A stretch of DNA of 64,000 nucleotides, taken from assembly GCA_025057115.1 (NCBI GenBank), contig JANWWZ010000001.1, forward strand, positions 124,001 through 188,000, in the 5' to 3' direction. Of this stretch, positions 6,990 to 20,321 are shown piece by piece; position 1 is the first letter of the stretch, and each line of letters opens with the position of its first letter. This DNA is from Bernardetiaceae bacterium (GTDB lineage: Bacteria > Bacteroidota > Bacteroidia > Cytophagales > Thermoflexibacteraceae). A program made the translations under genes and the position numbers. The notes beneath the pieces were generated by a model. It searched no databases. It had not been told where the DNA came from and saw only the letters and a list, made by a program, of their open reading frames with translations.

Positions 6990-7778
6990 ATGGAACGGAT
7001 TCATTTGCATTGCAACGTTTTTGGCTCAGGTTCGCGGGCGTTGCTTGCGTTTCATGGCTTTGGGCAAGAGAGCAGTTGTTTTATGCCTCTTGCTACTGCC
7101 TTGCCTGATTACACTGTCTATGCTGTTGATTTATTTTTTCACGGACAAAGTCTTTGGCATCATCCTTTGCAGCCAGTAACGCGTACAAAGTGGAAGCAAC
7201 TTATATCGGAGTTGTTAGAACATCATCACATTGAGGAGTTTGACCTAATTGGATTTTCTATGGGAGGACGGATAGCTTTGGTTACTTATGAACTTTTCGC
7301 CGATTGCATAAAACAATTGTGGTTACTTGCCCCTGACGGCATTAAGTCCAACGCTTGGTATCGCTTGGCAACTCGCAGCCGACTCTTGCATGGGCTATTT
7401 CGTTACATCACTTCAGAAAAAAGTAATGCCTTCCACCACAGCATGAAAGTACTACACCGATATAAATTACTAAGTCCTACGCTGGCAAAAATAGTAAGCC
7501 AACAAATGCGCACCCCTGAACTAAGGAAGCGGGTTTATAATACTTGGATGGTCTATCGCCATTTAGAACCTGATTTGCAAGCCATTTACAAAGCAGCTTT
7601 GCAGTTTGGTCCCAAAATAATGATTGCCACCGGCAGCTACGACCGCATCATACGCCCGCACTACATGAAAAGGCTCACTAGGTTACTGAGCAATCTTTGC
7701 GTGCATAAAGTCTTTCCCTGTGGTCATCAAGATTTGTTGCAAGTATGGCTTAATGAAGTGAGTGCAGCCAATAAGTAA
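6990..7778 (+). CDS. Alpha/beta hydrolase
   Basis: The 262-residue cytoplasmic protein has the standard fold: the oxyanion motif HGFG near residue 20, the nucleophile elbow GFSMGG near residue 90, an Asp in TGSYDRI and the catalytic His in CGHQDLL near the C-terminus. The family includes esterases, C-C hydrolases and thioesterases, and I cannot assign a substrate. It is a single gene, divergent from the S24 regulator and convergent with the C1 peptidase only 7 bases away. Confidence 0.8.
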   Translation: MERIHLHCNVFGSGSRALLAFHGFGQESSCFMPLATALPDYTVYAVDLFFHGQSLWHHPLQPVTRTKWKQLISELLEHHHIEEFDLIGFSMGGRIALVTYELFADCIKQLWLLAPDGIKSNAWYRLATRSRLLHGLFRYITSEKSNAFHHSMKVLHRYKLLSPTLAKIVSQQMRTPELRKRVYNTWMVYRHLEPDLQAIYKAALQFGPKIMIATGSYDRIIRPHYMKRLTRLLSNLCVHKVFPCGHQDLLQVWLNEVSAANK

Positions 7779-16336: not shown

Positions 16337-17593
16337 ATGTGGCTTACGATAAGGTTAATTTACGAAAGTTTTCTCTTTGCCTTGGGCGCTCTACGGGAAA
16401 ATTTATTGCGCACTATTCTTTCCTTGCTAGGGGTAACTATTGGCATTTTTGCTATCATTGGTGTGCTGACTATAGTAGATGCCTTAGAAAAGGGCATTCG
16501 GCAAAGTTTAGCTTTTATAGGCGATAAGGTAATTTACGTAGATGTATTTCCTTGGAACTTTACTGAACGAGATTATCCCTGGTGGAAGTACTTTCAGCGA
16601 CCCAATCCTACCTACGATGAATTTAAGTTTTTGGAACGCAACCTAACACAGGCAAGTGCAGTGGCAGTCTTTGCGGTTCGGACAGGCAACACGGTCAAGT
16701 TTCGAAACAATAGCCTGACAGGAGTGAATATTTTAGGGGTTTCGCAACAGTACAATCAAGCCAGCAAGGTAGATATAGAAAAGGGGCGATATTTTAATCC
16801 CCAAGAAAACGAGAGTGGTCGGAATGTGGTCATACTAGGTCATACAGTGGCGAAGGAACTCTTCGGCGAGCTAGACCCCATCGGGCAGCCAGTGGTTTTA
16901 AAAGGCATCCGATTTAATGTAATTGGGGTGATGAAACGCCAAGGAAGTACCTTGCTCAACACTCCCAGTACTGACAATGTGTGCATGATTCCTTACACAG
17001 CGATGACTAAAATGTTTAGCACGGGCAGGCGCCGCGGTCTGCGTCCCCAAATTATGCTGAAGGGATACGAGGAAGACACAGGGCTCATACTACTGGAAAA
17101 TGAAGCTCGCGGCTTGCTTCGCGCTTACCGCGGGCTTAAACCTAAAGAAGAAGACAACTTTGCCCTTAACCGACCTGAAGCCTTTGCAGTCCTGCTAGAT
17201 AGCATCATCGCGGTAATGACTTCAGCGGGTTGGTTTATTAGTATTTTCTCCATGTTAGTGGGAGGCTTTGGCATTGCAAATATTATGTTCGTTTCTGTAA
17301 AGGAGCGCACTAACTTGATAGGTATACAAAAGTCACTTGGTGCAAAAAATTTCTTTATACTTTTTCAGTTCCTTTACGAAGCCATTTTACTTTGTCTCAT
17401 TGGCGGAGTAGCGGGATTGGCACTGGTTTCTATGCTTACTTTTTTTTCTACAGAAAGTTTTGAAATTAGCCTAAGGGTAAACCGAGTGATTCTAGGTCTT
17501 GTCTTGGCTTCTGTAATTGGGATTCTCTCGGGGATTGCTCCTGCAATTGTTGCTGCGCGCATGGACCCAGTAGAAGCCATACGTTCCAAGTAA
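16337..17593 (+). CDS. ABC transporter permease (MacB/FtsX type)
   Basis: The 418-residue protein has the MacB layout: one N-terminal membrane helix (LLRTILSLLGVTIGIFAIIG), a periplasmic domain of about 230 residues and three C-terminal helices of the FtsX domain (GWFISIFSMLVGGFGIANI onward) with the conserved RMDPVEAIRSK end. Such permeases pair with an ATPase for lipoprotein or macrolide export or act mechanically. No ATPase gene is adjacent, so its partner is encoded elsewhere. No terminator is visible after it. Confidence 0.9.
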   Translation: MWLTIRLIYESFLFALGALRENLLRTILSLLGVTIGIFAIIGVLTIVDALEKGIRQSLAFIGDKVIYVDVFPWNFTERDYPWWKYFQRPNPTYDEFKFLERNLTQASAVAVFAVRTGNTVKFRNNSLTGVNILGVSQQYNQASKVDIEKGRYFNPQENESGRNVVILGHTVAKELFGELDPIGQPVVLKGIRFNVIGVMKRQGSTLLNTPSTDNVCMIPYTAMTKMFSTGRRRGLRPQIMLKGYEEDTGLILLENEARGLLRAYRGLKPKEEDNFALNRPEAFAVLLDSIIAVMTSAGWFISIFSMLVGGFGIANIMFVSVKERTNLIGIQKSLGAKNFFILFQFLYEAILLCLIGGVAGLALVSMLTFFSTESFEISLRVNRVILGLVLASVIGILSGIAPAIVAARMDPVEAIRSK

Positions 17594-17837
17594 ACGCAGG
17601 TTACTTTTTTGAGTGACAAACAAATTGGAAAGTTTTTAAAAAAGTTTGTCTTGCATTGCTGTTCAGTAAACTTTACAAGTCACAAGCCCTTAGCAAGCAG
17701 CCATTTTCTCGATAGCTCAAAAGATTTTTTCCACTACCGAAGGGAAAAGATAGCAAGTAAAAATTTTTTCAGCCCACGCCAAACTTTAGTGCAACATTTC
17801 AAAGTCAGCTGCGTTATTACACATGTAATAAATTTTT

Positions 17838-18248
17838 ATGAACGTCTCAAAATTCATCACTTTTCAGTACGATTCGCCTAATCGATTACTAATTAGTTGT
17901 TGGCTTACTACTGCCCAAATGAGCGACGAAGAATATCGCCAAGTGGCAATGGCATATCGGGAAGCATGTGAAATCTATCGTCCTTTTCGTTCGTTGATTG
18001 ATGGTCGTCGCGCTTGTTACGTCATCCCGCCACAAACTCAGCTTTGGCTTAGTGACAATATTTATCCCCAGTGCATAAAAGCAGGAGTGCATAAATTAGC
18101 CTTTCTAGTGGCAAAAGATTTTTATACTCAAATTAGTCTTGAACTGACAGTGTTGGAATCAGAAGAAAAAATTAGAACAAACCTCCAAAAGCTTCAGCAG
18201 TTCTTCTTCGCTGACTTTGACAAAGCCAAAGCGTGGCTCCTATCTTAG
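17838..18248 (+). CDS. STAS/SpoIIAA-like domain protein of unknown function
   Basis: The 136-residue protein resembles the short STAS-like proteins common in Cytophaga-type bacteria: an N-terminal beta hairpin, FRSLIDGRRACYVIPP in the middle, then VHKLAFLVAKDFYTQISLE, with an acidic DFDKAKAWL end. Members are thought to be small cytoplasmic regulators, but no function is established. The last codon is 2 bases before the first copy of the direct repeat that brackets the palindromic array. Confidence 0.6.
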   Translation: MNVSKFITFQYDSPNRLLISCWLTTAQMSDEEYRQVAMAYREACEIYRPFRSLIDGRRACYVIPPQTQLWLSDNIYPQCIKAGVHKLAFLVAKDFYTQISLELTVLESEEKIRTNLQKLQQFFFADFDKAKAWLLS

Positions 18249-18249
18249 C

Positions 18250-18277
18250 ACTGCTGTCTTTCAGCGTATTGAATAAA
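18250..18277 (+). repeat. Left copy of a 28-base direct repeat
   Basis: It matches 18714-18741 at 25 of 28 positions in the same orientation. The two copies bracket the palindromic repeat array. Confidence 0.75.
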
Positions 18278-18290
18278 ATGTCCCCTCGCC

Positions 18291-18546
18291 GTTGTTCGCG
18301 TTTCCTCGCCGTTGTTCCTGTCTCCACGAACTCCCTCGCCGTTGTTCGTGTCTTCACGAACAACTTCTCTTGCCGTTGTTCGCGTCCCCTTTCCATTGTT
18401 CGCGTTTCCTCGCCGTTGTTCGTGTCTTCACGAACAACTTCTCTTGCCGTTGTTCGTGTCCCCTTTCTATTGTTCGCGTTTCCTCGCCGTTGTTCGTGTC
18501 TTCACGAACAACCTCTCTTGCCGTTGTTCGTGTCCCCACGAACAAC
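18291..18546. repeat. Palindromic tandem repeat array (74-base unit)
   Basis: The array contains ten copies of the box RTTGTTCGYG, one degenerate, starting at 18291, 18311, 18341, 18375, 18395, 18415, 18449, 18469, 18489 and 18523. The spacing repeats 34, 20, 20. Four boxes are followed after 4 bases by the exact complement CACGAACAAC (18355, 18429, 18503, 18537), making 10-bp hairpins with TCTT or TCCC loops; a degenerate fifth lies at 18311-18334. Units 18341-18414 and 18415-18488 differ at only 2 of 74 bases. Because 74 is not a multiple of 3, all frames stay open through it, which creates false reading frames on both strands. It is not coding and is not a CRISPR array, because it lacks unique spacers. 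Confidence 0.9.
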
Positions 18547-18713
18547 CTCTTTGTATACGCAAAAAGCAAGGATAACCCGAATGTACACTTTTCAAAGAAG
18601 ATACTCGCTGCCATGCTGCTGGGTTGTTTTTCGGGACAGGGACAAGGCACATTGTTCATAAAGAGGCCAACAACGGCAAAAATGACCTTATAAAAACCTA
18701 CACACCTACTAAT

Positions 18714-18741
18714 ACTGCTGTATTTCAGTGTATTGAACAAA
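18714..18741 (+). repeat. Right copy of the 28-base direct repeat
   Basis: It differs from 18250-18277 at three positions. It ends 6 bases before a -7-like TATCTTTG (18748-18755) of the next gene, so the repeat forms part of that promoter region. The segment between the array and this copy (18547-18713) holds an inverted CAACGGCA and no gene. Confidence 0.7.
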
Positions 18742-18782
18742 GCTAACTATCTTTGCTGCTAGGTTTGTAAACCTTGCTTTAC

Positions 18783-20321
18783 ATGGCAAAGTGGTGTTAT
18801 CAAGCGGTATTTTTGCTGGCATGTCATTGGGTGGGTGCCCAATCTTATCAGGAGTTTGCCAATAGCTTTCAGCTAGGGAAAAAACTCATAGATGAAAAGA
18901 ATTACGCAAGCGCTAAAGTTCCTCTTGTCAATTTATTGAAAGACACTCCTCAAAATCCCTACTATAAATACGGTGCTTATTTTTATGCTCTGGCAAGTTA
19001 TTACACGAGTGATTTTTTGCGCTGCGAGCAAGTGCTTACCGAGCTGCTCAATCGCTATCCTCATTGGGAGCAAGCCGATGAAGCCCGTTTGCTACTTGCC
19101 TTGTCACACTTAGCTACTAACAACGTAACTGCTGCCAATGCAGTGGCTAGCAGCATCAAAAATGGGCAGGTGCGCAAAGTGTTCAACAATGCCAAAGCAG
19201 CCTCGAGCCATCAAGCTATTTCATCAACGAGTAATCATCAATCTTCTCTGGTGGCTCACGTCAAAAAAAAGCACTACCATGTTGCTTTGCTGTTGCCCTT
19301 TATGCTCAGTGAAACAGATGCTTCCAAGCCTGTGCGGCGCTTTCAGTTTGTTTATGACATGTACGAAGGCATGAAATTAGCACAAGAAGACCTTGCCAGC
19401 GAAGGCATTGACGTTCAATTATATCCTTACGACACTCAACGCAGCACGGTTACCACTACAGAGCAACTCACCCGACAAAAGGGCATCGACTTGCTTATCG
19501 GTCCCTTGTATAGCAACAATTTACAACCCCTATCGGACTATGCGGCGCAGCATCGAATTACTATTGTCAATCCTCTAGGAACGGGAGAGGAGTTGCTCAA
19601 GGACAACCACACCCTCCTTGTTCAGCCCACCGGAGCTATTATGGCACAGCAAGCGGCTTTATTTGCTGCTACGCGTTTTCAAGGCAAAACAGCTATCGTA
19701 TACCATGACAAAAATCCAGAAGATTCCACAATGGCATATGCCTATAAAAGCGCCTATGAACGCAATGGCGGTTTTGTTCATTTGATTCGCTCCTTGAGCA
19801 ACAAATCTAGTTTTCAACGAATAGTAGATGAATTGCAGAATGCCCCACGTACTGACTCTTTACATGTATTCGTAGCGGCTCGCCAACCTGCTATAGCCAT
19901 CAGTTTGGTAAGTGCTCTTCTTTCTTGTAAGCGCTCTATTCCTGCTATTACTACTCAAGAATGGCTTTATTACGACCAACTTAGTTACGAGCAGTTACAA
20001 CTAGCCCAAGTGCATTTCCTTATCCCTGATTTTGTCCGCAATACTTCTACTAAAAGCCGCCTAGACAAACTCATCGTAGAGCGCACTAACATGGTACCTT
20101 CTAAATTCAACTACGTGGGTTATGAAACGTTATATTTTTTTGGCAAGATGCTGCATAAGTATGGTCCTGCATTTCGGCAGTACTTGGGACAAGAGCCTGT
20201 GTATGAAGGGCTAATTTTGCCTGGCTTCGATTTCCGCAATGGAAAGGAAAATGCTTGCCTAGCAATTTGTACCTTTAACAACGGCGTTCTTGAACAAGTT
20301 TTTCCCCAGCCAGGAAGTTAA
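18783..20321 (+). CDS. TPR plus periplasmic-binding-fold (type 1) exported protein
   Basis: I chose ATG 18783. A signal peptide ends near CHWVGAQ. Residues of about 25-130 form TPR-like helices (KLIDEKNYASAKVPLVNLLK), as in outer-membrane assembly proteins. After a Ser-rich linker, residues of about 160-510 form a Leu/Ile/Val-binding-type fold (HVALLLPFML, LLIGPLYSNN, TAIVYHDKN). The combination recalls LpoA, an outer-membrane activator of peptidoglycan synthase, but the lipobox expected for a lipoprotein is absent. An envelope role is likely; the ligand is unknown. Confidence 0.75.
   Translation: MAKWCYQAVFLLACHWVGAQSYQEFANSFQLGKKLIDEKNYASAKVPLVNLLKDTPQNPYYKYGAYFYALASYYTSDFLRCEQVLTELLNRYPHWEQADEARLLLALSHLATNNVTAANAVASSIKNGQVRKVFNNAKAASSHQAISSTSNHQSSLVAHVKKKHYHVALLLPFMLSETDASKPVRRFQFVYDMYEGMKLAQEDLASEGIDVQLYPYDTQRSTVTTTEQLTRQKGIDLLIGPLYSNNLQPLSDYAAQHRITIVNPLGTGEELLKDNHTLLVQPTGAIMAQQAALFAATRFQGKTAIVYHDKNPEDSTMAYAYKSAYERNGGFVHLIRSLSNKSSFQRIVDELQNAPRTDSLHVFVAARQPAIAISLVSALLSCKRSIPAITTQEWLYYDQLSYEQLQLAQVHFLIPDFVRNTSTKSRLDKLIVERTNMVPSKFNYVGYETLYFFGKMLHKYGPAFRQYLGQEPVYEGLILPGFDFRNGKENACLAICTFNNGVLEQVFPQPGS

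Follow-up and report, generated by a model that had tools for sequence, protein, structure and literature searches.

The window, which is the whole stretch of 64,000 nt that was analyzed, covers positions 124001–188000 of contig C11 in a draft genome of 3.0 Mb and 86 contigs. On its minus strand, an array of REP-type hairpin units at 18288–18546 was defined by a box scan, unit identity, a tandem-repeat search and model scores. The scan, which allowed at most one mismatch to RTTGTTCGYG, detected ten boxes starting at 18291, 18311, 18341, 18375, 18395, 18415, 18449, 18469, 18489 and 18523, with box-to-box spacings of 20, 30, 34, 20, 20, 34, 20, 20 and 34 nt; the box at 18311 is degenerate. Reverse-complement boxes at 18355, 18429, 18503 and 18537 complete four perfect 10-bp hairpins, which lie in four complete 27-nt units with a GGC foot on the minus strand (18338–18364, 18412–18438 and 18486–18512, with 48.5 bits each, and 18520–18546, with 47.7 bits). 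These scores correspond to E values of 1–2e-13, which chance does not explain, in a 27-nt model made from units of other loci, some of them identical in sequence to units of the array. The tandem units of 74 nt at 18334–18407 and 18408–18481 differ at 2 of 74 positions (97% identity), and a third one at 18482–18555 has a diverged end and is 77% identical to the first; Tandem Repeats Finder returned a period of 74, with 2.8 copies and 97% match. The boxes, the hairpins and the near-identity of the 74-base units agree with what had been described in an earlier, sequence-only reading of this DNA, which had also held that the array fits no CRISPR. The repeat architecture agrees with this, as the sequence between the boxes is itself repeated, unlike the unique spacers between the identical repeats of a CRISPR. 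When the region 18280–18700 was folded as single-stranded DNA, the z score was −7.9, and none of 100 shuffles folded as well. Elsewhere in the window, at 2474–2503, there is a related hairpin with a weak score (23.6 bits), GCCGTTGCTTG..CAAGCAACGGC, which carries a GCC/GGC foot on either side.

The repeated unit is a 27-nt hairpin with the form GTTGTTCGTG-NNGA-CACGAACAAC-GGC. A BLAST search with the array matched 91 places in the same genome, and 163 units passed a hairpin test in its loci around about 30 clusters. All ten pairs are formed in 116 of these units, while the GGC foot, a conserved unpaired foot on one side, is present in 138. Thirty clusters were placed relative to genes: 24 are located between called ORFs, 5 at contig edges and 1 inside a called ORF. 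A degenerate 27-mer pattern occurred 82 times in the genome and not once when read backwards. In the covariation and search model, built from 48 units, both sides had changed at 7 of the 10 pairs, with 41 such cells compared to 8.9 in shuffles, and the signal was lost when the pairing partner was slid. The hairpin is thus dispersed, covaries, lies mainly between genes and carries a GGC foot. With a threshold of E ≤ 1e-3, the model matched at least 155 places in this genome and from 2 to 64 in each of 12 other genomes of the family, so that the unit is present in 13 of 13 family genomes; 150 candidates were scored per genome, and the high counts are lower bounds. At E ≤ 1e-6, with 19 candidates scored per genome, it was detected in 99 of 390 genomes of the order. 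The exact pattern was found in none of 394 other genomes sampled from the class; no further member of the family was listed in that sample. The search of the genome and its relatives that the sequence-only reading had called for thus revealed a unit that is dispersed genome-wide and also present in the family and the order. Copy numbers are lower bounds, because the assembly is a draft in which arrays lie at the ends of contigs C11, C12, C15, C25 and C86. Contigs of this genome end in or near hairpin arrays at loci L015, L018, L019, L024 and L034, and therefore the repeats have probably broken the assembly.

The unit behaves as a REP/REPIN repeat. It is a short palindrome with many intergenic copies (163 units), and it forms inverted doublets, 16 of the 24 inverted neighbor pairs at 60–220 nt being of the GCC..GGC type. 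The foot, GGC/GCC, differs from GTAG and CGTC, which characterize the two REP super-families that have been described. The suggestion that the array is a BIME-like element was therefore right in kind, since REP-type hairpins occur here as inverted pairs and tandem clusters, while the claim that it fits no known element is not upheld, because the array falls with REP/REPIN repeats. In another genome, G506, inverted doublets of 75 bp were present at 6 of 13 loci (L248, L249, L253, L255, L256 and L257); this is the classic REPIN form, and flanking direct repeats were not detected there. A longer tandem unit was observed at L280 in G488, a member of another genus, in which four identical hairpins are 288–290 bp apart. 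On contig C2, two 513-bp array segments about 30 kb apart (L011 and L012) are 84% alike in opposite orientation, and three core copies are 99–100% identical; as judged from these likenesses, this suggests recent exchange between arrays on that contig.

The array is only a part of a larger element. The sequence-only reading, which had marked 18291–18546, located the array correctly, but the whole inserted element extends over about 18278–18709 on the minus strand, with its 5′ (TTA-side) end at 18709, as determined from repeat edges and a terminus scan. In this element the array is followed by a core of about 100 bp between the hairpin ends (18547–18650, minus strand), in which 18593–18632 matches, with 85% identity (E = 3.6e-5), a 92-bp core present at other places of this genome. 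Next to it is a degenerate second-end hairpin, ATTGTTCATA..CCAACAAC, at 18651–18677 on the plus strand, which was read by eye, has an intact GGC foot and is absent from the model-search matches. The conserved terminus at 18678–18709 (minus strand, score 27 against the terminus consensus) is preceded by ATTA, so that the 5′ end of the element follows TTA. In the window copy the G-type end has grown into an array and the other hairpin has decayed.

The same organization was seen at other loci, where hairpins are arranged in tandem runs and in inverted pairs of the order GCC-hairpin..hairpin-GGC. A common core of about 90 bp was recognized by eye in 13 of the 16 inverted pairs, while the pair in L021 and two pairs in L032 differ. 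Matches to the core numbered 32 in this genome, while the three congeners had none. A complete element has the order terminus of about 35 nt, hairpin, core, hairpin, GGC. The terminus lies outside the A- or C-type end hairpin, where about half of 15 outer flanks showed it by eye; beyond the G-type end hairpin (25 flanks) conservation drops within about four bases past the GGC foot. At 8 of 10 termini the last four host bases contain TTA, and at all 10 the base at −1 is A. This set comprises the 10 of 17 matches that scored at least 18, the other seven abutting another hairpin or having no clear end; the consensus was built from the scored sequences, and the flanking TTA is outside the consensus. 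A coding role of the region (ORFs 18233–18661 and 18292–18693) was rejected because core copies differ by 1-nt indels.

The element in the window is flanked by direct repeats. The left copy covers 28 bp by BLAST at 18250–18277 (18246–18277 with the TTA boundary), and the right copy is located at 18714–18741 (18710–18741 with the TTA boundary); they are identical at 25 of 28 positions, and their length is 28–32 bp depending on the boundary chosen. Among 29 loci of this genome the left copy matches only the copy at 18714–18741, and each of the other flanking repeats likewise matches only its partner. With hairpins masked, direct repeats of 28–181 bp and 82–96% identity were found around 13 of the 28 testable arrays, and not around the other 15; four of the 32 arrays are at contig edges, and clusters were defined so that no hairpin was detected within 400 nt outside them. 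In controls, such repeats were found at 1 of 400 random positions, at 0 of 59 intergenic gaps in the loci of this genome and at 0 of 173 in the congener G001. An unmasked first pass had given 13 of 31 arrays with a longest repeat of 191 bp, but it included array-derived matches (e.g., at L018 and L031), and the masked test was used instead. At L013, L023 and the L033 copy at 7087 the left repeat covers the last 50, 28 and 67 nt, respectively, of a long open frame. In 7 of 12 arrays a hairpin foot and a repeat copy are no more than 6 bp apart, a count that excludes the window, where the limits were set by hand. The TTA-side terminus is within 1 bp of a repeat edge at both L033 copies and at L017 and L021, the edges at the latter two coming from the unmasked pass, while the masked test puts them 13 and 11 bp elsewhere. 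The earlier proposal of a recent amplification holds for the 74-base units only; the insertions look older, because identity between flanking repeats is only 82–96% at the 13 arrays.

In other genomes, two tests detected direct repeats at 4 of 57 and 6 of 37 hairpin clusters, and six of these ten were weak, with 68–80% identity. The stronger ones were L267, L277 and L278 (32 bp) in G442, and L279 in G488, where repeats of 77 bp with 99% identity lie 17 and 373 bp from the hairpin. L267 and L277 were rejected as target duplications, because by eye their flanks are apparently one sequence in opposite orientation and thus part of a repeat. Since repeats at clusters elsewhere are few and mostly weak, long target duplication is shown for this genome only.

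A direct comparison with an empty site was possible at L033 7087–7430, the only locus compared in full in this way. The two genes next to this copy are also adjacent in the congeners G001, G002 and G003, and the gap between them is longer in this genome by 270–271 nt, while the element (194 nt) together with one repeat (75 nt) makes 269 nt. After removal of the element and one repeat the sequence aligned to the congeners with small gaps only, and G001, G002 and G003 each have a single copy of the repeat stretch. Hence, three congeners have an empty site at this position, and the excess consists of the element and one 75-bp repeat. In 780 kb of G001 both flanks were near each other for two arrays only, which were L023 2524, where this genome has 2.2–2.3 kb of extra DNA compared to G001, and L029, where G001 is without the element and has a gap of 106 instead of 554 nt, in which the repeat region does not align. 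At the window locus the downstream gene is kept in the congeners, while neither of the two upstream genes was detected within 1.5 kb of it.

RAYTs are REP-associated Y1 transposases. No Y1 transposase was detected in this genome at E ≤ 0.001, and no cognate RAYT was found there. The only RAYT-like trace in it is a possible Y1-transposase relic, KAFVIMVNHIHGIL, a 28-residue HUH-motif fragment at G000:C21:8970-9053 (L238 1501–1584; E = 0.03), with a weak hairpin (23.5 bits) at a distance of about 140 bp. By eye, no transposase was seen beside the hairpins in the ORF lists of L018, L019 and L024 of this genome or of L084, L085 and L088 of its relatives. Of 12 other genomes searched, 9 had RAYTs, three of them above the curated cut-off; the congeners G002 and G003 both carry the hairpin, but no RAYT was found in them.

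Hairpins of this general form were present beside a RAYT at five distinct loci (L116, L109, which is the same as L124, L072, L092 and L189). Model matches at E ≤ 1e-3 were obtained at 4 of 28 distinct RAYT loci in one set and at 3 of 80 in the other, the latter count including L124, with the same gene as L109, and L187, with hairpins 1.3 kb away. Only L072 has the standard form with a 4-nt loop and a GGC foot. At L116 (G007) five hairpins with 3-nt loops surround an open RAYT of 178 residues, at L092 and L189 the loops are longer, and at L109 (G005) the foot is GGA. The L116 protein scored 71.9 with the NCBIfam RAYT model, below the curated cut-off of 80, and had no Pfam match at E ≤ 0.01, while L109 scored 103.8. 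At L072 3500–4097 (G032) the RAYT is broken by an in-frame stop, and the hairpin starts 18 bases past the stop codon, with 17 bases between. About 1.1 kb upstream in L072 there is a second RAYT, and the hairpin after it has a longer loop but shares the GGC foot. L109 and L116 share the motifs NH[IV]H, WQ, YIH.NP and SS, and in L109 the distance from H60 to Y144 is 84 residues. Subclass 2.6 RAYTs, which correspond to Bertels group 5, are from Bacteroidetes and have a median H-to-Y distance of 82 residues, according to the available parts of Quentin 2018 (PMC6006769). As judged by motifs only, this subclass would be the class nearest to L109 and L116. A general pairing of the hairpin with group-5 RAYTs was rejected, because a strict scan found it at 1 of 80 named RAYT loci.

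Around the 80 Bacteroidota RAYTs, 112 hairpins of at least 9 bp were counted in 46,128 bp within 300 bp of the genes, compared to 77 in 291,244 bp more than 900 bp away. This density is about nine times that far away, and 55 of the 80 loci have such a hairpin. The commonest three-base feet near these genes were AGC (28), AGT (16), TTT (16) and AAC (13). GGC is not typical there, with 3 of 112 hairpins near and 4 of 77 far. One Bacteroidota-type RAYT (L163) is on a contig labeled as a Bifidobacterium breve MAG, which is probably a binning error.

We propose, with a probability of about 75%, that the array arose by local amplification of one end of a REP/REPIN-type mobile element, small and non-autonomous, which would have been inserted in a RAYT-type HUH reaction with duplication of upstream DNA, the enzyme being lost later. 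A RAYT-type HUH (Y1) enzyme acting on single strands would have recognized the hairpins and joined the 5′ end of the element 3′ of TTA. At the hairpin foot, the opposite end would have been resolved 28–190 bp upstream, which would have duplicated that stretch. The 74-nt tandem array could then have grown out of the hairpins by slippage or unequal exchange, with loss of the enzyme from this genome as a later step. The mobilizer is the part that we infer, because no RAYT was found in this genome. The more specific reading, in which one end placed precisely 3′ of TTA, another end 28–190 bp upstream and long, variable target duplications are the footprints of RAYT/HUH-type insertion, is tentative, and we would give it somewhat less than even odds.

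The repeats could also have arisen by replication template switching without any transposase, if a nascent strand copied the repeat elsewhere and returned upstream of its point of departure. This rather doubtful alternative is consistent with the variable repeat length and with the failure to find a transposase in this genome, but the recurrent element ends and the TTA preference point to an enzyme cutting at fixed sites. The main rival reading, which we consider unlikely, is that a REP was duplicated in tandem together with its flank in the ordinary way, so that the flanking repeats would not be target duplications arising from insertion. The available parts of Bertels and Rainey 2011 (PMC3116915) describe REPIN clusters in tandem with flanking sequence included, and the arrays of this genome clearly undergo tandem duplication. 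However, tandem duplication would leave an element past the second flank copy, while no hairpin was detected within 400 nt outside the clusters, and the excess at L033 7087–7430 over three congeners is one element with one flank copy. The close fit between repeat edges and element ends, to within 1 bp on the TTA side (both L033 copies and, by one edge set, L017 and L021) and to within 6 bp at the foot in 7 of 12 arrays, also argues against it.

It is very improbable that the array is kept for a host function, as a structured-RNA source, a terminator or a protein-binding array. The strong fold and the conservation of the hairpins would fit such a role, but copy number varies from 2 to at least 155 among relatives, and a search of 17400–19400 against Rfam at E ≤ 1 gave a single match, of 13.3 bits at 17628–17711, which is under the cut-off of 44 and outside the array. 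Genes around the clusters, from home-made ORF calls, have no clear orientation bias (9 tandem, 9 convergent and 6 divergent compared to 8, 6 and 5 in the window), and a terminator role is not supported because of this. The RNA source considered in the sequence-only reading, whose interpretation is overall partly supported, is not called for by Rfam, fold or gene orientation. The least probable alternative is a DDE-type MITE, which would also be small, dispersed and non-coding with recurrent ends, but which would have inverted repeats at its termini and a short target duplication of fixed length, in contrast to the unlike ends (a terminus of about 35 nt and a hairpin foot) and the variable repeats of 28–181 bp observed here.

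How such repeats spread is an unsolved question, and the location of copies between duplicated local DNA at about half of the testable places is a clue to it. The recurrent ends, the TTA target, the long duplications and the empty site in three congeners provide a concrete, testable handle on that question; if the proposal is true, TTA-precise insertion with a long variable duplication would be a way for REPs to spread whose traces are directly visible in genome sequence. The available parts of PMC6006769, PMC8266576, PMC3116915, PMC2817692, PMC3520747 and PMC3733652 hold no description of it. A literature search with the 10-mer box gave no title on such repeats among the matches listed. Neither the hairpin family nor the long duplications were described in the titles and abstract openings found on REPs or MITEs with target duplication, or on REPs in Bacteroidetes or Cytophagales, a scope outside which supplements and most subscription papers fall.

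Among known systems, the IS200/IS605 family and its non-autonomous derivatives (PATEs) share several properties with the element. IS200/IS605 elements insert 3′ of a short fixed target, and the element here similarly follows TTA at 8 of 10 termini, has hairpins near both ends and, if the RAYT reading holds, would depend on the same Y1 enzyme class. It differs in that this genome has no Y1 gene at the threshold used and in its long flanking duplications, seen as repeats at 13 of 28 arrays and one empty site, while IS200/IS605 make no larger target duplication, according to the available parts of PMC2817692. The REPs with GTAG or CGTC tags, as far as described in the available parts of Di Nocera 2013 (PMC3733652), are similarly tagged palindromes of 20–40 bp that form dimers and are mostly intergenic, and the CGTC ones were reported in Bacteroidetes without an associated transposase; the tag here is different. 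"Atypical secondary structures" without GT[AG]G were reported around subclass 2.6 RAYTs in the parts available of PMC6006769, and sequences can now be given for them, with AGC, AGT, TTT and AAC feet, while the family described here has GGC. The closest likeness is to the REP/REPIN/BIME repeats and their RAYTs, with which the element shares high-copy short intergenic palindromes, inverted pairs, tandem clusters and, in some cases, a position beside RAYT genes, while the lack of a detected RAYT in this genome is a difference. Hence, the element belongs to the known REP/REPIN kind, and the GGC foot and, in this genome, the asymmetric ends, the TTA target and the long flanking direct repeats set it apart.
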